DNA of 24,666 nucleotides from a virus. Of the stretch, positions 1-24,666 are shown piece after piece. The DNA lies in IMG/VR virus record IMGVR_UViG_3300032401_000081, positions 1 to 24,666 of that record; one strand, written 5' to 3'. Numbering within the stretch: position 1 is the first letter of the stretch; each line of letters opens with the position of its first letter. Position numbers and translations under genes: made by a program. The notes beneath the pieces were generated by a model that saw only the letters and a program-made list of their open reading frames with translations, was not told the origin of the DNA and ran no database searches.

Positions 1-142
1 GTGACCTCTCTGCCCAATAATATGTAGGTGTTTTACCAGAACCAACTTCAATAGCCCCTCCTGCTCCGAAGTTCGTGTCCTTATTATAACCATGTAGCAA
101 AGTATCTTTACTACTCGGTTGAATTGTCAAAGGACTTGCCAT
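1..142 (-). CDS. Partial surface/adhesion-type protein with DNRLRE-like N terminus
   Basis: This gene starts at an ATG (142-140) that overlaps the TAA of the upstream gene as TAATG, and it stays open to the left window edge, so only about 47 residues are visible. The N terminus reads MASPLTIQPSSKDTLLHGYN followed by a D-T-N-F-G motif. This resembles the start of DNRLRE / disaggregatase-related beta-sandwich domains, which begin with a 'KDT-L ... NYG ... l-vG' pattern and occur in secreted and phage surface proteins. Role (inference): a host-surface or glycan-binding virion component at the end of the tail module. The family call rests on a short stretch and is tentative; that an ORF exists is fairly sure from the coupling and the absence of stops. 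Confidence 0.55.
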   Translation of the reverse strand, partial: MASPLTIQPSSKDTLLHGYNKDTNFGAGGAIEVGSGKTPTYYWAERS

Positions 143-513
143 TAAATATCAGTCCTCACAAACATTTCACCGGTCCCAGGTGTTCCAGGAAAACTCGTAC
201 CAGTACGGTAGCCTTTAGCATATAAATCTGTGTTCTGGACGTGTGTATTCAGTACCGCCGTGTCTATTGTTGCCCCGCTAGAAGATAGGACATTCCGCTT
301 CCACACCGTCTGCTTGCCCCAGATTATCTCCACGTCTACCGGCGCATTGTCGGGCAACTCAGTAAAGGTCGCCTGGCCCGAACCGTTGGTGTACTCCTCT
401 TCGACCTGAACAGGATTGGCAGGGTCAGTAACGTTGTAGGCACGACACCAAGCTTGGGCGATTGCCTTGCCTTTCTCATTTTCAACCTGCACCGTGTAAC
501 TTCGGTATCCCAT
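142..513 (-). CDS. Small Ig-like/beta-sandwich phage structural protein
   Basis: This 123-residue protein has alternating hydrophobic and polar residues. The N-terminal part (about 5-90) looks like a carboxypeptidase-regulatory-type or Ig-like beta sandwich: a 'VENEKGKAIAQAWCRAYN' strand, then an 'NGSGQATFTELPD' turn. The last 25 residues contain FPGTPGTGEMFVRTD, a motif I associate with phage fibre and receptor-binding proteins ('FP..P.tG.mfvrtD'). Its ATG (513-511) follows the stop of the upstream nuclease-like gene as TAAATG, and its own stop overlaps the next ATG as TAATG, so translation is probably coupled across three genes. Role (inference): a tail or appendage component. No enzyme motif is visible. 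Confidence 0.6.
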   Translation of the reverse strand: MGYRSYTVQVENEKGKAIAQAWCRAYNVTDPANPVQVEEEYTNGSGQATFTELPDNAPVDVEIIWGKQTVWKRNVLSSSGATIDTAVLNTHVQNTDLYAKGYRTGTSFPGTPGTGEMFVRTDI

Positions 514-861
514 TTATAACTGTTCTCCTTTTATGGCCTGCTGCATGGTGTAATTCAAACGTTCCATTAAATCTTTGGTCCAAAGGTCTACGACAACATA
601 TCCTAATGCTTGTAATCTTTCTTTTTGAATAGTGTCACGAGCTTCCACATTAACTCCTGCATGAAAATACTCCCCCATTATTCTCAAGAGTATATTATTT
701 TCCGTCAAAATGAAGTCCACGATTGCATCGCCTAATTCTCTGACGCCTCTTAATCCGATAAGTTGCGATTGGAACTCAAATTTAATTCGGTGTTGTGTTA
801 ACCACTTATACACCATCGCTTCCAAATCAGACATAGGGGGTAAACTTTTATTATTCGACAT
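514..861 (-). CDS. Vsr/PD-(D/E)XK-like endonuclease-domain protein
   Basis: This 115-residue protein shows the layout of the Vsr-like/PD-(D/E)XK nuclease superfamily: an N-terminal helix with E14 (SDLEAMVYKWL), a core acid D49 in 'DAIVDFIL', a strand ending in 'GEYFH' (residues 63-67), then 'ARDTIQKERLQALGYVVVDLW', which matches the conserved 'D..K...L...GY.V..iW' tail of Vsr and related proteins. In Vsr-type enzymes an acidic residue usually precedes the G.YWH motif; here the equivalent position looks like R60, so activity is uncertain. The gene is coupled to the next structural gene (TAAATG). It starts 28 bp from a divergent HNH endonuclease gene and lacks a strong Shine-Dalgarno. Free-standing nucleases of this type occur as selfish genes in phage late operons. 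The fold call is fairly good; the function is inferred. Confidence 0.65.
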   Translation of the reverse strand: MSNNKSLPPMSDLEAMVYKWLTQHRIKFEFQSQLIGLRGVRELGDAIVDFILTENNILLRIMGEYFHAGVNVEARDTIQKERLQALGYVVVDLWTKDLMERLNYTMQQAIKGEQL

Positions 862-889
862 TACTCATCATCTGTAGTATGATTATTAT

Positions 890-1429
890 ATGGTTCGACA
901 AAAAATATGTCCACTTTGTAATTGTACCTTTGAAACGTCTCAACCAAACGCAAAGTATTGCCAAAAGTGCCATGGTAATGGAACTAAAAGCAAAGCAGCC
1001 GCTAAACGTTGGAGATGGAAAACTGCGCATCCTTGCGTAGATTGCGGTACACCTGTGAATCGCAATGCGCAAAGATGTAGAGCATGTTCTCATACTAAGA
1101 TTGGGAAAGAGCACCGCCGTGAAAAACATCCACGATGGAAAGGTGGTAGGGGATACGAATCTGAGGGATATATTCGTGTTCTTGTTGAACATCATCCTAG
1201 AGCGACCAAGAATTATGTCTATGAGCATATCCTTGTTTGGGAACAAGCTAATGGGAAATTGCCCGAAGGCTTTGTTATACATCATCTCAACGGAATTAGA
1301 CATGACAATCGCCTTTCCAATTTATCTGCAATGCCGAGAGGACAACACCATTACTCTCTTTACCTAAGAACTTTGCAGCAACATATCCGTGACCTTGAGG
1401 CCAAACTAAGTCAACAAAAATTACTTTAG
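890..1429 (+). CDS. HNH homing-type endonuclease with two zinc fingers
   Basis: This 179-residue protein is encoded against the direction of the surrounding late genes. It has two CXXC/CXXC zinc-binding modules (C7, C10, C24, C27 and C49, C52, C63, C66), a basic linker, then an HNH_3-type nuclease core: Y111-E112-H113, 'VIHHLNGIRHDNRLSNL' with H131, H132, N134, N140 and N144. A short helical tail follows (about 152-175). This matches free-standing phage HNH endonucleases, which cut DNA and promote their own spread. The stop (TAG 1427-1429) overlaps the convergent stop of the 597-residue tail gene. No clear Shine-Dalgarno precedes the ATG. The gene looks more AT-rich than its neighbours, consistent with recent insertion. 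The long antisense frame at 851-1303 has no such motifs. Confidence 0.88.
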   Translation: MVRQKICPLCNCTFETSQPNAKYCQKCHGNGTKSKAAAKRWRWKTAHPCVDCGTPVNRNAQRCRACSHTKIGKEHRREKHPRWKGGRGYESEGYIRVLVEHHPRATKNYVYEHILVWEQANGKLPEGFVIHHLNGIRHDNRLSNLSAMPRGQHHYSLYLRTLQQHIRDLEAKLSQQKLL

Positions 1430-3219
1430 GCATATACCACTTCCGAAACTACTATTGTGAGCCGCTCTTCCTTTGCAATATTGTCCAGGTCTTGACGAGA
1501 CGGCATTGACTCTATACCTACCCATCTGGCGGTACCGCGCGTGTCACCATCAGGATAGAATTTTATAAGGGTCGTAGAGTTCTTGGCCGCCTCCAGGTCA
1601 GCAATAATCCTCTTTGCCTCGACACCACGAGCTGCCAAACTAAAGGAATATGACAATACCGGCTCCGGATTAGGTTTGAAGTAAAGGCAGATAGACTTGA
1701 TTACCGGAGATACCTCTACCGAAGCGGTGCCACGATAAAAGATTAGTTTCATTTGAACATCGTAGAAAGCGAGGCCCGCGCCGGCGGTGGCGCCAAGCTT
1801 TATCGGCGTAGGACGGCCATTGGTGGAGAACGTCCCCACGGCGCTACCCCAACTATCCGTATCGTTCACCCGGATATAAACTTCAACCTTTTCATTGTGG
1901 TTTGAAGTAACAGCATCACAATTCTTGGTGGTCGCCGCCACCATGACGGCTATTTTAGGAAGAGTGCTTACTTTTGATAGCCTGGGCAAAATCACACTAC
2001 CCGATAATGCAAAGTCAAATCCCGAAACCCTAGTGACGTCTTTGGTAATGTCCGGGAAGTCCATGTACTTGATGGCATTAGCTTCTCCGAAATAGAGACG
2101 GTTAGGAGACGTTAAGGTACTATGATGGACGCAGTTAATCGCAGCCGCGGAAGCTCCGGTATAGACTTGGTGCCAACCTCCAATCGTGCTGTGCCGTTTT
2201 AATATTGAAGAATAGGTACCGCCACTCACGGCCACGACAAGCCAATGCGTAAGACCTTTCATGTCGTAGATGTAACCGGTATACCCGCTCGGAAGCCCAT
2301 CGTCGGCATCCGGGCCCCAGATGTCAGTAAAAGTTCCTTGAGCTGCCTTTGTTAATCCTGGGCCATTACTGGCAAAGACAGAGGCGTTCCAGTTGCAACC
2401 TTTCAGGGCATTACTTGTTTTCCCCCAGGTAACATCGGTGAGATAGGCTACACGAGTCCAGAAGTCTATTACAACCAGGCCAATATCGGTAACCATGTAA
2501 ATCACATCATCATCAGATGTGAAAGCACGTCCGGCAAAGAGGTCATACGCTGCTGCCCACGGCCCGGAGATACTGAAAGATGCCATGGGTCCGCCAGTTT
2601 GAAGGTCGTCACAGTTATCCCTAGCAGAATAGTAGATTGTCGTGCCAGTACCATTAACTCCCATGAGTCTTTTGTCAAAGGCACAAAGGTATTTTACGGG
2701 AGTTGCGACTGTGGTTAATGCTGCCCACGTTGTACCATTTATTGAATAGCGCGCACTAGTGCCATTGCAGTAAATGAGATACGTGTCCGTAGCGTCCTGG
2801 AATACTATTACGTCAGTCGGCGTAGCAAGAGGGCTTCCGTCGGCCGCGGTCATAGTGCCGGCATTGTTGTATTCTGATTTACTCGTACCCCAAACATAGG
2901 TATACCCCTCGAAGTCAATCATCAATAACGGTGGTGTCTCAAAAGCGTCCAGTGTAGTAGCAAGGGCTCCAAGGGTCCAGTATCCTTCTTTGGTGAGTTC
3001 CATACTTTCGGACCAGGATACTCTATCTGTTTGTTCTGTTTCGGAGTCTTTGCCTATACCACCTCGAGCGTCTTTATATTCACGAACAGAGGCCGGTTGG
3101 TAATCAGCAAAATCCTGGGAGCCCATGGACATTTTGGCGGACCAAGGATTGATGTATGACTTGGTGACTCCACCCTCTATCAGGAGAGTCTTGCCGTTTA
3201 GACTAACTTTGTTACTCAT
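1426..3219 (-). CDS. Large beta-rich tail/virion protein (propeller-like)
   Basis: This 597-residue protein shows no enzymatic motif. It is rich in Trp, Tyr, Gly and Thr, with repeated strand-turn-strand segments at roughly 40-60 residue spacing through residues 100-400 (for example TYVWGTS, TYLIYCNGTSARYSINGTTW, VIYMVTDIGLVVIDFWTR). This suggests a beta-propeller-like body. The last 100 residues (YSFSLAARGVEAKRIIADLEA, then 'TARWVGIESMPSRQDLDNI') look like a separate beta-domain of tail proteins. The start overlaps the stop of the connector-like gene as TAATG. Position after the connector suggests a tail or tail-stabilising component with many copies of surface strands. I do not recognise a named family. 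That it is a structural gene is likely; the propeller fold is inferred from pattern only. Confidence 0.7.
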   Translation of the reverse strand: MSNKVSLNGKTLLIEGGVTKSYINPWSAKMSMGSQDFADYQPASVREYKDARGGIGKDSETEQTDRVSWSESMELTKEGYWTLGALATTLDAFETPPLLMIDFEGYTYVWGTSKSEYNNAGTMTAADGSPLATPTDVIVFQDATDTYLIYCNGTSARYSINGTTWAALTTVATPVKYLCAFDKRLMGVNGTGTTIYYSARDNCDDLQTGGPMASFSISGPWAAAYDLFAGRAFTSDDDVIYMVTDIGLVVIDFWTRVAYLTDVTWGKTSNALKGCNWNASVFASNGPGLTKAAQGTFTDIWGPDADDGLPSGYTGYIYDMKGLTHWLVVAVSGGTYSSILKRHSTIGGWHQVYTGASAAAINCVHHSTLTSPNRLYFGEANAIKYMDFPDITKDVTRVSGFDFALSGSVILPRLSKVSTLPKIAVMVAATTKNCDAVTSNHNEKVEVYIRVNDTDSWGSAVGTFSTNGRPTPIKLGATAGAGLAFYDVQMKLIFYRGTASVEVSPVIKSICLYFKPNPEPVLSYSFSLAARGVEAKRIIADLEAAKNSTTLIKFYPDGDTRGTARWVGIESMPSRQDLDNIAKEERLTIVVSEVVYA

Positions 3220-4502
3220 TACTTTTCGTGCACGGCCTTACTGCCCGGGGTAACGAATATCTTGATATTCCTCTTCTCGTCCTCGGCAAATGCCTGCGCT
3301 GCTTTCATTTCTGCGTCGTACTCCGGCTTGCTTTGAAGTAAATAAGCCAAGGCCTGCTGAATAATAAAGTCCGGTGGTACCGCGCAAGTGCTGGCATCTG
3401 AGGTTATGGTTGCCTGGTGTTTCCATCCTTCGAGTCGGAGTGCCTTCCCAGGAGTAATACCTATCTCGTTATGGAATTTCAGTAGCGGAGTAGAGGCATG
3501 AACGATTGACCATAAACGCTTATCTAACGGATAGTCGAACCGTGGCTGACCGTCCATAACCGCTCTGATATCGTCAAACCATATTATGTTAGCCTTCTTG
3601 TTAGCGTTGTATTCAAAACCGATAGAGGCTATGACCGTGTCAGATGCGGGATTGGCAAGAGTACACTCTACGAACGTCCAGGTATAGGCGGGTATGGCGG
3701 GTAAACTAATCGTTTCAAGTGGTGAACCGCAACCAAGGGTATTATCAAGCAAGAGGCAAAGGTCTGCTGCAGCAAGCGCCGATGATACCTGTATCCAAAA
3801 CGAGATTTTCTTGTAAGGTGATAAATCCTCGGCACTAGTTAGGTTCTTATAAGCAATTACGTCTCCGTTTGATATTCCAGCGCCTACGGTAAATTTAATA
3901 CTAGCTCCGCCTTCCTGGTAATCGACATCATCTACCTCTTGAGTAACATCGGTGTCAACTCCTGTCCATTCAGCATCACAATCTTCGAGAAGATGCCGTT
4001 GTGTAGACTCCACCCACACGTCAGTCAGATAATCAAAACCAGACGGTATATCATATTCTCGCTTCATGTACCGGGATTCTCCTAGTTTGTAGGCCATGAA
4101 GTGAAGCGTCTCATCCACATTAGGATATTTGAAAAACCGTTGAGAGCGCCGGATAGCACGGTTAATAGCATCGTTGTATTGTTCCATGGTAAATTTGCGG
4201 TGGAGTTCTGCAAAGTCAGTCGTAGTCACTTGAGCGGTTACGGCAGCAAATGTTAAGGTATGTGTACTCAGTGTCCAGCCAGTTGCCGCTCGGATTACGT
4301 CAATGTTCGGTCCAGCGTAGAAGCCCAAACTCCAATATTGATAGAAACTATCTGCCTCGGGTAAGTTGGTGTCAACCAAGTCCGTCTTGCCAGCAGCTCC
4401 CGACTGTGGAGCAACTAACATCAGGTCACCGCAGGCAGAAGCTATTGATTGCCGGAGTTCATACCGGTATACTGCGTAGAGTGTTTGAATTTCGTTTGCC
4501 AT
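3219..4502 (-). CDS. Head-tail connector/adaptor-like protein with inserted carbohydrate-binding-like domain
   Basis: This 427-residue protein has two parts. The outer frame (1-165 and 320-427) is helical and includes 'TMEQYNDAINRAIRRSQRFF' (about 105-124) and a C-terminal helical segment with 'PPDFIIQQALAYLLQSKPEY', resembling phage connector/adaptor-type proteins. Between them, residues about 173-314 form a beta-rich module: 'DVTQEVDDVDYQEGGASIKF', 'DLSPYKKISFWIQVS', 'TWTFVECTLANP', 'IIWFDDIRA'. That pattern (duplicated sample, SIKF, D-L-S-Y-k-I-FWI, ending D-D-I-R) is typical of galactose-binding-like/CBM jelly rolls found in glycan-binding proteins. Role (inference): a ring or neck protein with an exposed decoration domain that could contact host polysaccharide. 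It is followed by the coupled beta-rich tail gene. Confidence 0.65.
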   Translation of the reverse strand: MANEIQTLYAVYRYELRQSIASACGDLMLVAPQSGAAGKTDLVDTNLPEADSFYQYWSLGFYAGPNIDVIRAATGWTLSTHTLTFAAVTAQVTTTDFAELHRKFTMEQYNDAINRAIRRSQRFFKYPNVDETLHFMAYKLGESRYMKREYDIPSGFDYLTDVWVESTQRHLLEDCDAEWTGVDTDVTQEVDDVDYQEGGASIKFTVGAGISNGDVIAYKNLTSAEDLSPYKKISFWIQVSSALAAADLCLLLDNTLGCGSPLETISLPAIPAYTWTFVECTLANPASDTVIASIGFEYNANKKANIIWFDDIRAVMDGQPRFDYPLDKRLWSIVHASTPLLKFHNEIGITPGKALRLEGWKHQATITSDASTCAVPPDFIIQQALAYLLQSKPEYDAEMKAAQAFAEDEKRNIKIFVTPGSKAVHEK

Positions 4503-4511
4503 AACTCTCTC

Positions 4512-4790
4512 CTATTCGTCACGTTTGTACTCCAAGAGATAACCCGATATTTTCTTTGTTGCCTTATCAACAAGACGTGTAATTTGCAACCTTATCGGAG
4601 CTCGATACCGTCCTTGTTGCTTTTTTAGACGTTCCTGAGCATCCTCTTTAACCTTCTGCTCGAGTTCCTCAAACTGGTGACCGTCCAGGGTGCCACAGTC
4701 CATCACTATTGTCGGATGATCACCGGGAAACTGAGCAGGTATTTCACGGAAAGGCAATACCCTGCGCTTCGGTAAATATAAATCCACCAT
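4512..4790 (-). CDS. Small phage protein of unknown function
   Basis: This 92-residue protein has an N-terminal beta-like segment (VDLYLPKRRVLPFREIPAQF), a central charged helix rich in Glu, Lys and Gln (about 40-62, EELEQKVKEDAQERLKKQQG), and a C-terminal strand pair with basic residues (RAPIRLQITRLV...GYLLEYKRDE). No cysteines or catalytic motif are present. It sits 9 bp upstream of the connector-like gene in the same operon and its ATG has only a weak ribosome binding site (AGAGG, about 13 bases away). A minor head-tail joining or chaperone role is possible from position. I do not recognise the family. Confidence 0.6.
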   Translation of the reverse strand: MVDLYLPKRRVLPFREIPAQFPGDHPTIVMDCGTLDGHQFEELEQKVKEDAQERLKKQQGRYRAPIRLQITRLVDKATKKISGYLLEYKRDE

Positions 4791-4866
4791 CTTATCTACA
4801 ATGCCTCTGTCTATGCCTTAGATTTCTTCACAGGAGCTCGCTGGCGTGGCTTCTGCTGCTTTCCCG

Positions 4867-5127
4867 CTATCCTTTTGTGTGCCTTCCCTTAAAACGCTTC
4901 ATTTTGGCACCTTGTATGCCTTCGGGTGATACGCCAATGCCAGGATATTTCCTCTTCACAGCACCACGTACTTTTGACTTCTCTTCCGAGGAGCCAAAAG
5001 CTGCTACGCGGGCAAGTGCATTGCGAGCATGAGCCTTGTCCTGAATAGGATACTTGCGTTTCTTACCGTCAACGGCAAAGGCACTTCCGGGCAATGCTTT
5101 TCTTTGACCGTACGTTAATTTTGCCAT
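4867..5127 (-). CDS. Small basic phage protein (KRKYPI/HARNALAR motif), possibly 3' frameshifted
   Basis: This 86-residue, Lys/Arg-rich protein carries 'KRKYPIQDKAHARNALARVA' (about 24-43) followed by 'SSEEKSKVRGAVKRKYPGIG'. I recognise this pattern as a small domain common in phage genomes, often in or next to head genes; its biochemical role is not established to my knowledge. A good AGGAGG site precedes the ATG. The protein ends in ...KRFKGRHTKG at a TAG. At a run of four A (minus strand 4876-4873) a -1 shift would open a further 20-residue, strongly basic tail, RIAGKQQKPRQRAPVKKSKA, ending at TAG 4813-4811, only 20 bases before the next gene. The annotated end is the direct reading; the longer form is a hypothesis. 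Confidence 0.72.
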   Translation of the reverse strand: MAKLTYGQRKALPGSAFAVDGKKRKYPIQDKAHARNALARVAAFGSSEEKSKVRGAVKRKYPGIGVSPEGIQGAKMKRFKGRHTKG

Positions 5128-5137
5128 GTTAAACCTC

Positions 5138-5353
5138 CTAATTTATAGATTCCCAACTTTTAATAGCTGGCACTACTACACCAGTTATAAAGTTCTTAAT
5201 CTGAGTATTCTGGGTAGCAGTCAAATTCAGTTTTAATGAACCATGAATGGCATTGTCAGCAGTGGTTGCATCATAGTTGGCATTACACTCAAGGTCTCCC
5301 AAGGCATTTAACTGGCAGACTAATGAAACCTCACCTGATAATATCTTAGCCAT
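5138..5353 (-). CDS. Small unknown virion-module protein
   Basis: This 71-residue protein has a short beta-like N-terminal half (ILSGEVSLVCQLNALGDLEC, with C13 and C20) and a C-terminal half, 'GSLKLNLTATQNTQIKNFITG', that could be an amphipathic helix. It has a strong AGGAGG site just upstream of its ATG and lies between the collagen-like fibre gene and the small basic protein, all on the minus strand. It could be a fibre-associated or tail accessory protein, but nothing in the sequence shows a function and I do not recognise the family. Confidence 0.6.
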   Translation of the reverse strand: MAKILSGEVSLVCQLNALGDLECNANYDATTADNAIHGSLKLNLTATQNTQIKNFITGVVVPAIKSWESIN

Positions 5354-5365
5354 TTATTAAACCTC

Positions 5366-6319
5366 CTATGCGGTTCTCTTAAAAATGTAAATTACAAAAT
5401 AAGGTGGCATACTGTTTGGTGTATCATGTGCCGAATGTGCATCGACCGCGCCACCTGAATGAGCCAAAACTGGAGTATTATGACTGTGTCCAATAGTTGC
5501 TGTGTTGGCTGTACTGGTCCCCAATTTAGAGGTTGCGGCAAAGTTGCTTGTTGCAGTCGCAGGATGGTCAGAAGGCTGAGTAAACGCATGATTATTATGT
5601 CCTGCATGAGTATGAGTCTTTGCTCCACCTGTTTCCTCGGCAACATCAAAATCAGCATCCCCATCAGTTTGCCCAATGAGAACCTTCCCACCCGCAATTT
5701 GTGACCATGTGCCAAAACCTAAAAGGGTATTTGGGTTCGTGGCGACTACTGATAAGAATACAGACCCTATAGGCCAACATAAACTAACATCACCCGCAGG
5801 ACCCTGGACACCAGTATCCCCCTTATCGCCCTTCACCCCAGGATTGCCCTGAATACCTTGTTGACCTGTCTGTCCAGTTGGTCCTGTATCTCCAGTATCC
5901 CCTTTTACACCTTGATTGCCCTGTTGCCCTGGTGCACCGTCTTGTCCATTACTACCAGAGGTTCCCTGTAGGCCTTGGCTTCCAGTTTCACCCTGGATGC
6001 CCTGCGTGCCTTGTGTTCCTGTGGCACCAATTTCACCAGGCGAACCTTGTTCACCTTGAGTGCCTTCAACACCTACTAATGAGGCAAGCCATTCCTCCTC
6101 TGTGCCTTCAAAACCATTATCAACTGCTATCTCATAGGCACTTTTACCTGGGGTTCCTACGGCCTCATCGTCGCTTTTTTTTTCCACCCAATTCGTATTG
6201 CCGATACAAATATATGTTTTGCCAGTATCAGATTCATAAAATTCTGCCCCTGGCGGTGCCGCCGGCTTGGTTTCCGTTGATAACCCGATGTATCTGGTGA
6301 CTTCTCCAACATGTTTCAT
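5366..6319 (-). CDS. Collagen-like phage tail fibre/spike protein
   Basis: This 317-residue protein has three parts. Residues 1-85 are an N-terminal domain ending in 'SAYEIAVDNGFEGTEEEWLA', a linker often seen in front of bacterial and phage collagen-like segments. Residues 86-178 are 31 uninterrupted Gly-X-Y triplets, rich in GTQ, GDT and GIQ, predicted to form a trimeric triple helix. Residues 180-317 form a phage tail-collagen-type tip: 'CWPIGSVFLSVVATNPNTLL', 'GTWSQIAGGKVLIGQ', then His-rich THTHAGHNNH (235-244) and GHSH (277-280) that may bind metal as in other fibre tips, ending 'MPPYFVIYIFKRT'. Role: host recognition by the distal part of a trimeric fibre. A good AGAGG site precedes the ATG. 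A terminator lies directly upstream, so expression may be reduced relative to capsid genes. Confidence 0.9.
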   Translation of the reverse strand: MKHVGEVTRYIGLSTETKPAAPPGAEFYESDTGKTYICIGNTNWVEKKSDDEAVGTPGKSAYEIAVDNGFEGTEEEWLASLVGVEGTQGEQGSPGEIGATGTQGTQGIQGETGSQGLQGTSGSNGQDGAPGQQGNQGVKGDTGDTGPTGQTGQQGIQGNPGVKGDKGDTGVQGPAGDVSLCWPIGSVFLSVVATNPNTLLGFGTWSQIAGGKVLIGQTDGDADFDVAEETGGAKTHTHAGHNNHAFTQPSDHPATATSNFAATSKLGTSTANTATIGHSHNTPVLAHSGGAVDAHSAHDTPNSMPPYFVIYIFKRTA

Positions 6320-18872: not shown

Positions 18873-18961
18873 TTATCTGATGTCAGTATAGGAATGATTC
18901 ACCTGCCACCGTAGTAAACGGATTTCCTTTTTCAGTTCCTCAATTTGTTGATTTCGGCCAT
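18873..18961 (-). pseudogene. Possible small coiled-coil gene with one-base frameshift
   Basis: Between the 98-residue gene and TerL, an ATG (18961-18959), preceded by GAGAGG, starts a nine-codon frame, MAEINKLRN, then stops. A neighbouring frame runs without stop through 'QQIEELKKEIRLLRWQVNHS' to TAA 18875-18873, four bases before TerL. Restoring one base near the AAATTG would join them into a protein of about 30 residues with a clear coiled-coil pattern. Alternatively the second frame extends the upstream 98-residue gene by a shift near its end. Both are hypotheses; a sequence error is equally possible. Confidence 0.35.
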
Positions 18962-18964
18962 CGA

Positions 18965-19261
18965 TTAGTCCTCTCTAAGCCAACTTTGTTGTATGCAATG
19001 CTGTTTAACGATTTCGCATATAGCCACAACTGTGGTGTCGGTGGCTTTCACGAAACGGTAACTTATCGTGCCATTAGTATTTCGCCAGGCGACAAGTAGA
19101 CCGTCAATACTAGCTCGCTTTGACTGTACTTCCGCCAGGAGTTCGTTTATATCATTCGCCTCAATAACATCATCAACGGTTACCTTACTTGCCGGAAGCC
19201 GGCCCAGGTCAATCACGCGTCGCGCTTTCTTTTTGACTTCTACGTTCTTACGTTTAGTCAT
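18965..19261 (-). CDS. Small basic unknown protein upstream of terL
   Basis: This 98-residue protein starts with a very basic stretch (MTKRKNVEVKKKARRVIDLG). A helical section (about 27-50, VTVDDVIEANDINELLAEVQ) follows, then a beta-like half with 'SIDGLLVAWRNTNGTISYRF' and 'VVAICEIVKQHCIQQSWLRE'. The start overlaps the previous stop as TGATG, so translation is coupled to the zinc-ribbon gene. The N-terminal charge suggests nucleic-acid or acidic-partner contact. No family recognised. Confidence 0.6.
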   Translation of the reverse strand: MTKRKNVEVKKKARRVIDLGRLPASKVTVDDVIEANDINELLAEVQSKRASIDGLLVAWRNTNGTISYRFVKATDTTVVAICEIVKQHCIQQSWLRED

Positions 19262-19437
19262 CAGTATTTATTCAAATCCATGTCTGCAGGCGTCACATAC
19301 TGCGCACCTTCCGGCTCCCACCGCTTGTTTACCTTGAGGTTCATGCCACACTTCGGACAGGGCGTCATTATTGATTCTGCCTCTGTGTCAAAGACCTCGC
19401 CGCAACCGTGACAACGTACTTTTTTCTTGTTTGGCAT
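19261..19437 (-). CDS. 58-residue zinc-ribbon protein
   Basis: I set the start at ATG 19437-19435 because AGGAGG lies 6-7 bases before it; a longer frame to 19521 lacks such a site and would overlap another zinc-ribbon gene. The product (MPNKKKVRCHGCGEVFDTEA...) has C9-x2-C12 and C27-x2-C30, a classical zinc ribbon, then 'LKVNKRWEPEGAQYV'. Such proteins bind nucleic acid or act as small adaptors. It overlaps the next gene's start (TGATG). Function is not known. Confidence 0.72.
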   Translation of the reverse strand: MPNKKKVRCHGCGEVFDTEAESIMTPCPKCGMNLKVNKRWEPEGAQYVTPADMDLNKY

Positions 19438-19447
19438 TAAAGACCTC

Positions 19448-19588
19448 CTACTTTTCGCTGCACTTTTTGTTGGTGCACCTCCAAAGAATCTCGGTTTTGC
19501 CGAGAAACATTGGGCGTTCAACCTTCTCCATCATCTTCCCGCAATCCGGACATTGTGCCCCTCTGATTTTGTCCTTGGTTCGTTTCAT
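19448..19588 (-). CDS. 46-residue zinc-ribbon protein
   Basis: Short gene from ATG 19588-19586 to TAG 19450-19448. Its ATG overlaps the TGA of the preceding gene as ATGA, a strong sign of translational coupling. The product reads MKRTKDKIRGAQCPDCGKMM and later 'ILWRCTNKKCSEK': C13-x2-C16 and C38-x4-C43, able to hold one zinc. It is followed eleven bases later by a second zinc-ribbon gene. The long alternative frames across this region in other registers have no comparable motif. Function unknown; nucleic-acid or protein binding is likely for the fold. Confidence 0.7.
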   Translation of the reverse strand: MKRTKDKIRGAQCPDCGKMMEKVERPMFLGKTEILWRCTNKKCSEK

Positions 19589-21509: not shown

Positions 21510-21580
21510 ATCTCTATTATACCCATTCCCAGCGCCAACTGTTTAATCCCAGGTGGCCAGGTACGTTTACCCCTCATAAA

Positions 21581-21627
21581 CGGTTTAACGGCCTCCCTTG
21601 CTCACCACAGAGCGTCGGTTTAAGGCC
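21581..21627. repeat. Paired CGGTTTAA(C)GGCC repeat, possible operator
   Basis: CGGTTTAACGGCC at 21581-21593 and CGGTTTAAGGCC at 21616-21627 are direct copies differing by one inserted base. In addition AACGGCC (21587-21593) is inverted at 21624-21630 as GGCCGTT. A weaker relative, CTGTTTAATCCC, lies at 21539-21550, next to terS. Their place between divergent operons suggests a protein-binding site; this is inference. Confidence 0.45.
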
Positions 21628-21660
21628 GTTGGCAGCCACCGGCAACAGTTCCGAAGCTAA

Positions 21661-21670
21661 CAGCTAGCTG
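21661..21670. repeat. Perfect 10-bp palindrome
   Basis: CAGCTAGCTG is its own reverse complement and lies in the divergent control region about 65 bases upstream of the early -35 box. It could be a dimer-binding operator site; a 10-bp palindrome can also arise by chance. Confidence 0.35.
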
Positions 21671-21735
21671 CACAGCCCCGGACCTGACCCCCCTCTGTTC
21701 TCTCTCTTTTTTTCCTGCTTCACTCGTGGCTAGAG

Positions 21736-21765
21736 TTGACATACTTAGGAAAATAGTTTTATAAT
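21736..21765 (+). promoter_or_regulatory. Sigma-70-like promoter for the rightward operon
   Basis: Consensus TTGACA (21736-21741) and TATAAT (21760-21765) are separated by 18 bases, followed 52 bases later by the first ATG of the operon. Both boxes match the housekeeping consensus exactly, so strong early transcription by host RNA polymerase is expected unless repressed. Confidence 0.9.
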
Positions 21766-24204: not shown

Positions 24205-24666
24205 CTATTTTCGGCTTGTCCACCATTGATATAATTCCTCGCCTGTTTCAAAGCAATGTTTCAATGGTTTACCCTTCCTAGTCATATTTCCATTGGCTTT
24301 ATGTCTCATTACAATACGTTCACAAGCCCGCTTCCAGTTAGCTACTATCTTTGGAAAGTAAAGTTCCTCTCGTTCTATTTGCCGAGAAAAGGGGCATAAC
24401 ACACAACCAAGTCGTTTGAATCCTTCATCGTAAAGCGAACAATAGGGCAGGTTGTTTTCTCGGATATATTGCCAGATGTCAAAGTTGTCGAAATTGATGA
24501 TGGGGCGTAAAAAGGTTTTAGTCGATTGGCGATATGGACTCTTGGCACGCTGTTCAGGAGTTTCCACATAACATTGTTTCCTTCGTTTGCCACCTTCTGC
24601 TCTGCGATTCCCCATTATTATTGTTCGCCCATTCCCGCCTGCCTCCTTGATAATTTCACAACACCA
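24205..24666 (-). CDS. PAPS-reductase-like protein, 5' end outside the window
   Basis: The frame stays open from the right edge (first visible codons W-C-C-E-I-I-K) through 'GRTIIMGNRRAEGGKRRKQC' to TAG 24207-24205; the ATG at 24615 is an internal codon. 'WCCEIIKEAG...GNRRAEG..R' is the typical central motif of phosphoadenylyl-sulfate reductase/DndC-like family proteins (family 'GvR..ES..R'). Later 'NFDNFDIWQYIRENNLPYCS', 'KRLGCVLCPFS' fits their C-terminal part, the cysteines perhaps holding a cluster or zinc. Members act in sulfate assimilation, in DNA phosphorothioation or in nucleotide and tRNA chemistry; phages carry several of unknown substrate. The N-terminal nucleotide loop lies outside the window, so the reaction is not assigned. 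Confidence 0.82.
   Translation of the reverse strand, partial: WCCEIIKEAGGNGRTIIMGNRRAEGGKRRKQCYVETPEQRAKSPYRQSTKTFLRPIINFDNFDIWQYIRENNLPYCSLYDEGFKRLGCVLCPFSRQIEREELYFPKIVANWKRACERIVMRHKANGNMTRKGKPLKHCFETGEELYQWWTSRK

Follow-up and report, generated by a model that had tools for sequence, protein, structure and literature searches.

Why do genes for two nucleases of different families stand back to back between the late genes of a phage, and did they come to this place together? The question is raised by positions 514–1429 of the IMG/VR record IMGVR_UViG_3300032401_000081, an uncultured virus of 24,666 bases that was analysed over its whole length and is called the window below. At this locus a Vsr-like gene and an HNH gene point away from each other. 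We consider it likely that the segment is an intronless, free-standing insertion of the homing-endonuclease type at a gene junction of the late operon. This assessment refers to the homing-type insertion as such; two of the alternatives weighed below, namely independent insertions and a functional pair, share that core, and the likelihoods attached to them overlap with it.

The window virus is a bacterial virus. Its minus strand holds genes of terminase-like (phrog_2, expectation value (E) 1.3e-10), major capsid, internal virion and gp10/collagen-like fibre proteins according to Pfam and PHROG, and the operon around the nuclease pair is probably a late, podovirus-like one. The Vsr-like gene (514–861, minus strand) encodes 115 amino acids, and the HNH gene (890–1429, plus strand), which is antisense to the operon, encodes 179 amino acids; a spacer of 28 bp (862–889) lies between both start codons. 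On its downstream side, the Vsr-like gene is coupled by TAAATG (511–516), in which its stop codon is fused to the start of the following gene (142–513, minus strand, 123 amino acids). On the other side, the stop codon of the HNH gene (TAG, 1427–1429) overlaps the minus-strand stop codon (1426–1428) of a gene of 597 amino acids (1426–3219, minus strand), which is probably structural by position. The divergent orientation with its 28-bp spacer, the HNH gene opposing the operon with overlapping stops and the TAAATG coupling had all been described in the initial annotation, and each is present in the sequence. The same annotation spoke of a tail operon, a label that is inferred from the virion genes on the minus strand; both genes flanking the pair are open reading frames without a significant family match in Pfam or PHROG (for the 597-amino-acid protein, none at E 1).

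The proposal that two nuclease families lie side by side was borne out for both proteins. The Vsr-like protein matches Pfam DUF559 with E 9.2e-6 and 25.9 bits (cut-off 20.6). Its assignment as a strict Vsr very-short-patch repair endonuclease was rejected, with 13 bits against the 97.85 required by the NCBIfam vsr model and no listing of Pfam Vsr at E 1. The single sequence gave 3hrl as the sole match among solved structures (E 0.12), and the first model, built from the single sequence with a predicted local distance difference test score (pLDDT) of 68.5, matched nothing by fold at E 0.001 (best 0.23; 3hrl fifth, 0.52), so a model based on an alignment was used instead. The window protein and three weak phage matches were used to draw eight viral loci, and the alignment, called A3, consists of the window protein and six of these eight loci, all distant relatives. 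The A3 profile matched 3hrl (2.6e-8), I-Bth0305I (3r3p, 6.2e-6) and Vsr (1cw0, 1.1e-3) among the solved structures. For the model built from A3 (mean pLDDT 76), Foldseek placed Vsr at the top (E 7.3e-4, the only match below 0.001) and I-Bth0305I fourth, while VIA-align gave Z 10.7 with a root-mean-square deviation (rmsd) of 2.7 over 91 residues for I-Bth0305I (3r3p), Z 10.3 with an rmsd of 2.1 over 95 residues for Vsr and Z 10.0 for 3hrl. By modelled fold and by profile, the protein is grouped with I-Bth0305I and Vsr, and the A3 profile and model both agree with an EDxHD/Vsr-like catalytic fold.

The name EDxHD stands for the residues E, D, H and D, and the window protein carries all of them as E14, D49, H67 and D76. 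In A3, E14 is common to five of the six aligned relatives and the other three residues to all six. The 3r3p chain in the alignment has alanine in the D and H columns and is perhaps an inactive construct. Among the relatives, L021 and L024 have longer N-terminal regions in front of the Vsr-like domain, and the phage gene L025:1579–3960 joins a DUF559/Vsr-like domain to a HINT match that lies below Pfam's cut-off, which makes it a possible intein with an EDxHD-type nuclease. Judged by these relatives, the Vsr-like domain is of a kind that homing enzymes use, although stable stand-alone versions of it may exist.

The HNH protein matches Pfam HNH_3 (E 2.3e-16) and phrog_20891 (E 1.2e-17), whereas a sequence search of solved structures gave nothing at E 1. 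The HNH motif is preceded by two CxxC...CxxC clusters (C7/C10..C24/C27 and C49/C52..C63/C66), and the HH-N, DN and NL motif residues are retained in an alignment of eight sequences, its own included. An HNH domain with the catalytic motif of free-standing HNH homing endonucleases is therefore present. The HNH core was also matched by tblastn in two free-standing phage HNH endonucleases, MulchMansion gp182 and ctDrO704, which stand as lone genes among phage genes, that of MulchMansion likewise antisense to its neighbours. In contrast to the window protein, this type has different N-terminal regions, and no Vsr-like neighbour was found beside it.

The impression of the initial annotation that the segment is AT-rich holds: the G + C content (GC) of 514–1429 is 39.8%, compared with 47.3% for the window. 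When intervals of 916 bp were slid along the window (n = 2375, step 10; mean 0.474, standard deviation 0.025), only two were as low as the 0.398 of the segment, and the lowest starts at position 511. Among the 24 listed genes, the Vsr-like one is the poorest in GC (0.376); the HNH gene has 0.420. The best-fitting low-GC segment within 1–6000 is 512–994, with a gain of 10.8; 20 shuffles, for which a coarser grid was used, reached 8.75 at most. The left edge of this segment coincides with the gene junction, and further to the right the HNH gene comes nearer to the background. Other HNH genes of the lineage, described below, are mildly AT-rich, with 0.418 in the insert of L006 against 0.461 in the rest and 0.435 in the gene of L009 against 0.464 (L009:1–10234). 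No repeats framing the segment were found in 400–1600, where only a few short or imperfect pairs occur.

The spacer carries a further feature of the pair. Sites resembling sigma-70 promoters with at least 10/12 matches occur nine times in the 24,666 bp, and two of them lie at the spacer, overlapping and on opposite strands. The site reading into the Vsr-like gene (TGGACA-17-TATAAT, 885–913, minus strand) has 11/12 matches and is the second best of the window, and the site reading into the HNH gene (TCGACA-17-TATGAT, 855–883, plus strand) has 10/12. Their -10-like elements (878–883 and 885–890) are 1 bp apart, and each -35-like element lies within the opposite gene or that gene's start codon. 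In 5000 shuffles of 830–930, a site with at least 10/12 matches arose in 12%, one with at least 11/12 in 1.2% and sites on both strands in 0.48%; these shuffles were run after the divergent pair had already been noticed. The overlapping promoter-like sites suggest one divergent cassette. With the usual distance from the -10 element, the HNH message would start at about position 890, at its own ATG, and would be leaderless. When the upstream regions of 26 genes were inspected by eye, no Shine-Dalgarno-like sequence was seen before the start of the Vsr-like or the HNH gene; many operon genes have one. The comparison of upstream regions also showed AAAGGAG followed by TAAATG in the end of the Vsr-like gene (511–531, minus strand), which apparently provide gene 142–513 with its ribosome-binding site and its start. 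The heptamer TTCGACA occurs at 854–860 and again at 894–900, flanking the spacer at a distance of 40 bp, which may be due to chance.

The gain and loss of HNH genes elsewhere in the lineage were followed in three sequences. Records L009 and L010 represent the same phage as the window (99.96–100% identity over 18.9 kb) and extend its sequence beyond position 24,666, and they contain a second HNH gene of this phage (L009:3066–3647; no Pfam match at E 0.1). L005 and L006, both known from 4-kb fragments only, are relatives with 76–85% DNA identity in the aligned pieces and 91–92% in the terminase. In L006, an HNH gene starting at L006:570 is carried on roughly 620 inserted bases (507 to about 1130), which interrupt a small Cys-rich gene in its 3' part. 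The alignment with L006 shows that this gene is uninterrupted in the window (19261–19521, minus strand), where the empty site is near 19305; the site is likewise uninterrupted in L005. The HNH frame of L006 reads into the old end of the Cys-rich gene, and the split gene acquires a new C-terminus. The opposite state is seen at 18897–18974 (minus strand), between the terminase start and the preceding gene, where the window retains a remnant of an HNH 3' end that is 92% identical over 26 amino acids to the protein of L009:3066–3647 (E 1.2e-9 in a search limited to this phage's DNA) and is absent from L005 and L006. HNH genes thus appear to be gained and lost at gene junctions and gene ends in this lineage, with a direction of change deduced from three sequences, and this turnover supports, by analogy, an insertion at 514–1429.

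The terminase frame next to the remnant can begin further upstream in L005 and L006 (GTG or ATG before CCTATA); the window has no ATG, GTG or TTG there, and its terminase may therefore start at a later ATG. A second remnant is possibly present at L009:2390–2452, where the frame QTQFIEDLKKEIRLLRWELKQ resembles an HNH C-terminal tail (57%, E 0.044).

The two nucleases were also sought together elsewhere. Among 30 sources (the window and 29 loci, several of them overlapping), the two profiles co-occurred nowhere but in the window and in L003, a copy of it. The partner nuclease was found in none of the 8 other HNH loci and none of the 11 other Vsr-like loci with profiles at E up to 0.05, which already contained seven of the former and six of the latter; the HNH profile covers the window's HNH type only, the flanks covered are between about 0.4 kb (at one contig end) and 10 kb long, and L019/L020 as well as L022/L023 look near-identical, so that the 11 Vsr-like loci amount to fewer independent cases. 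By eye, L021:4760–5401 resembles a gene of another HNH type, about 1.5 kb from a Vsr-like gene. A Vsr-type nuclease was not named in the surroundings of four phage HNH relatives, within the limits of their annotation, and in the literature consulted we noticed none that describes an EDxHD-HNH gene pair.

An endonuclease encoded in a group I or group II intron found no support at this locus: no Rfam family reached its gathering score in the window, although a divergent intron could escape Rfam, and both flanking frames are open and complete. The search of 1–3300 at E up to 1 gave only an unrelated small-RNA family, below its gathering score.

If the segment is a homing-type insertion, two nuclease genes, one EDxHD/Vsr-like and one HNH_3, would ride on a single insertion at the gene junction and would most likely be expressed from the overlapping divergent promoter pair in the 28-bp spacer. 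The two enzymes would each cleave, near this junction, a cognate phage genome without the insertion, and repair of the break would copy the segment across, as in standard intronless homing. We infer nuclease activity, target, promoter use and the joint movement of both genes from sequence. The composite selfish insertion proposed in the initial annotation fits because both families are used in homing, the low-GC segment has its left border at the junction, the spacer holds promoter-like sites for both genes and HNH genes vary within the group. A stricter version seems rather unlikely: a two-gene homing cassette whose overlapping divergent promoters exclude each other and keep the genes together as a unit, so that the insertion would defend or spread itself with two cutting specificities, one expressed at a time per template.

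Several observations weigh against a homing-type insertion. No allele of the 514–1429 site without both genes or with one of them was found, nor was any relative that covers the site: the sole near-identical record (L009/L010) stops at window position 5794, short of the nucleases. Viral contigs were scanned with the two flanking genes, with the structural gene that comes next and with the Vsr-like protein itself; no relative came up, although such single-protein scans reach close relatives only. Among phage records, neither the Vsr-like nor the 597-amino-acid protein had a match at E 1e-5, and up to E 10 only weak ones appeared (best 0.07 and 6). Plasmids gave no match to the Vsr-like protein, genome contigs none to it or to the terminase alignment, and a comparison of window positions 1–3300 with five records gave just 52 and 19 matched bases. 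The composition of the pair is less striking gene by gene, as gene 5138–5353 is also low (0.380 GC), and several operon genes likewise have no clear ribosome-binding site. As regards the Vsr-like protein, the mitochondrial-ribosome entries 9i05 and 9g6k score nearly as well with VIA-align (Z 9.6 and 9.1), and an added target-binding part is not recognisable in its 115 amino acids, nearly all of which are within the catalytic fold. It also has R60 where all six relatives have E, and M62 where four have D and two have N; I-Bth0305I has E and N in these columns and Vsr has F and H. These substitutions could impair the protein, and its activity may be reduced. Finally, two groups of phage contigs have a stand-alone Vsr-like gene of 151–158 amino acids upstream of one for a baseplate-hub-like protein (the neighbour was tested in L018 and judged by eye in L020, L022 and L023), which argues for the stable residence of some Vsr-like genes.

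That last point bears on the reading in which the late operon has the Vsr-like gene as a domesticated resident, its nuclease serving for example repair or packaging, and only the HNH gene is mobile. The Vsr-like gene runs with the operon, is joined to gene 142–513 and contains in its 3' end what appears to be the ribosome-binding site of that gene; all this agrees with such a role, but residence is hard to square with the lowest GC of the listed genes and with the missing Shine-Dalgarno-like sequence, and we regard it as distinctly unlikely. Two independent insertions that became neighbours by chance, an HNH free-standing homing gene and a Vsr-like gene that arrived separately, are a somewhat better prospect and a possible explanation, although still an improbable one. 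HNH genes of the lineage do stand alone elsewhere (L006, L009 and the remnant), and the partner was not found in the 8 other HNH and 11 other Vsr-like loci; the overlapping divergent promoter-like sites around one spacer, with -35-like elements inside the other gene or start codon, speak against chance neighbours. That the partner was not found in those loci counts as well against the other half of the proposal in the initial annotation, by which cutting is done by one of the nucleases and resolution or assistance by its partner. Such a functional pair, in which the second protein resolves, nicks or assists or the two genes form a mutual expression switch, has only the geometry in its favour, as one polymerase would block the other at -10-like elements 1 bp apart, and we hold it to be very improbable.

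Both proteins belong to known kinds of homing-type nuclease, and only the paired layout with a shared promoter spacer is unusual. I-Bth0305I (3r3p, 'Mobile intron protein') is alike in catalytic fold and aligned profile, but here the 115-amino-acid domain is the product of a free-standing gene. The Vsr mismatch endonuclease (1vsr, 1cw0) is also alike in fold and aligned profile, whereas the window protein stays below the curated Vsr models and sits in a phage late operon. T4 has 12 free-standing homing genes in intergenic regions, of which segD alone is antisense, between the structural genes 23 and 24 (PMC2988022). Like the HNH gene, segD is of the homing type, stands free and runs antisense to structural genes, but it belongs to the GIY-YIG family and is a single gene with no promoter of its own recognised. 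EDxHD is listed as one of at least six homing families, exemplified by I-Bth0305I, in PMC3943268. A 2025 paper reports that intron-borne homing genes of phages contain EDxHD/Vsr-like domains, with thousands more matches, many of them unannotated (PMC12350094), and two homing genes within 2 kb have been reported for a cryoconite phage (PMC7468147). Descriptions of free-standing homing endonucleases usually concern single genes; a cassette of two families around one promoter spacer would, if true, show how such genes can be bundled and jointly controlled in a late operon. The pair is of modest interest, and would be of more if it recurred or if its two genes acted together. The lineage is useful in itself, as an occupied and empty HNH pair of sites and a decaying remnant let insertion and loss be followed.

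Two further observations concern other parts of the phage. A gene of 110 amino acids is present in two copies that are 79% identical and near each other in the same phage (window 23844–24172 and L009:9019–9347). The only perfect 12/12 sigma-70-like site of the window lies at 21736–21765 (plus strand), and a 10/12 site at 21516–21545 (minus strand) faces away from it, which makes 21516–21765 a probable divergent control region.
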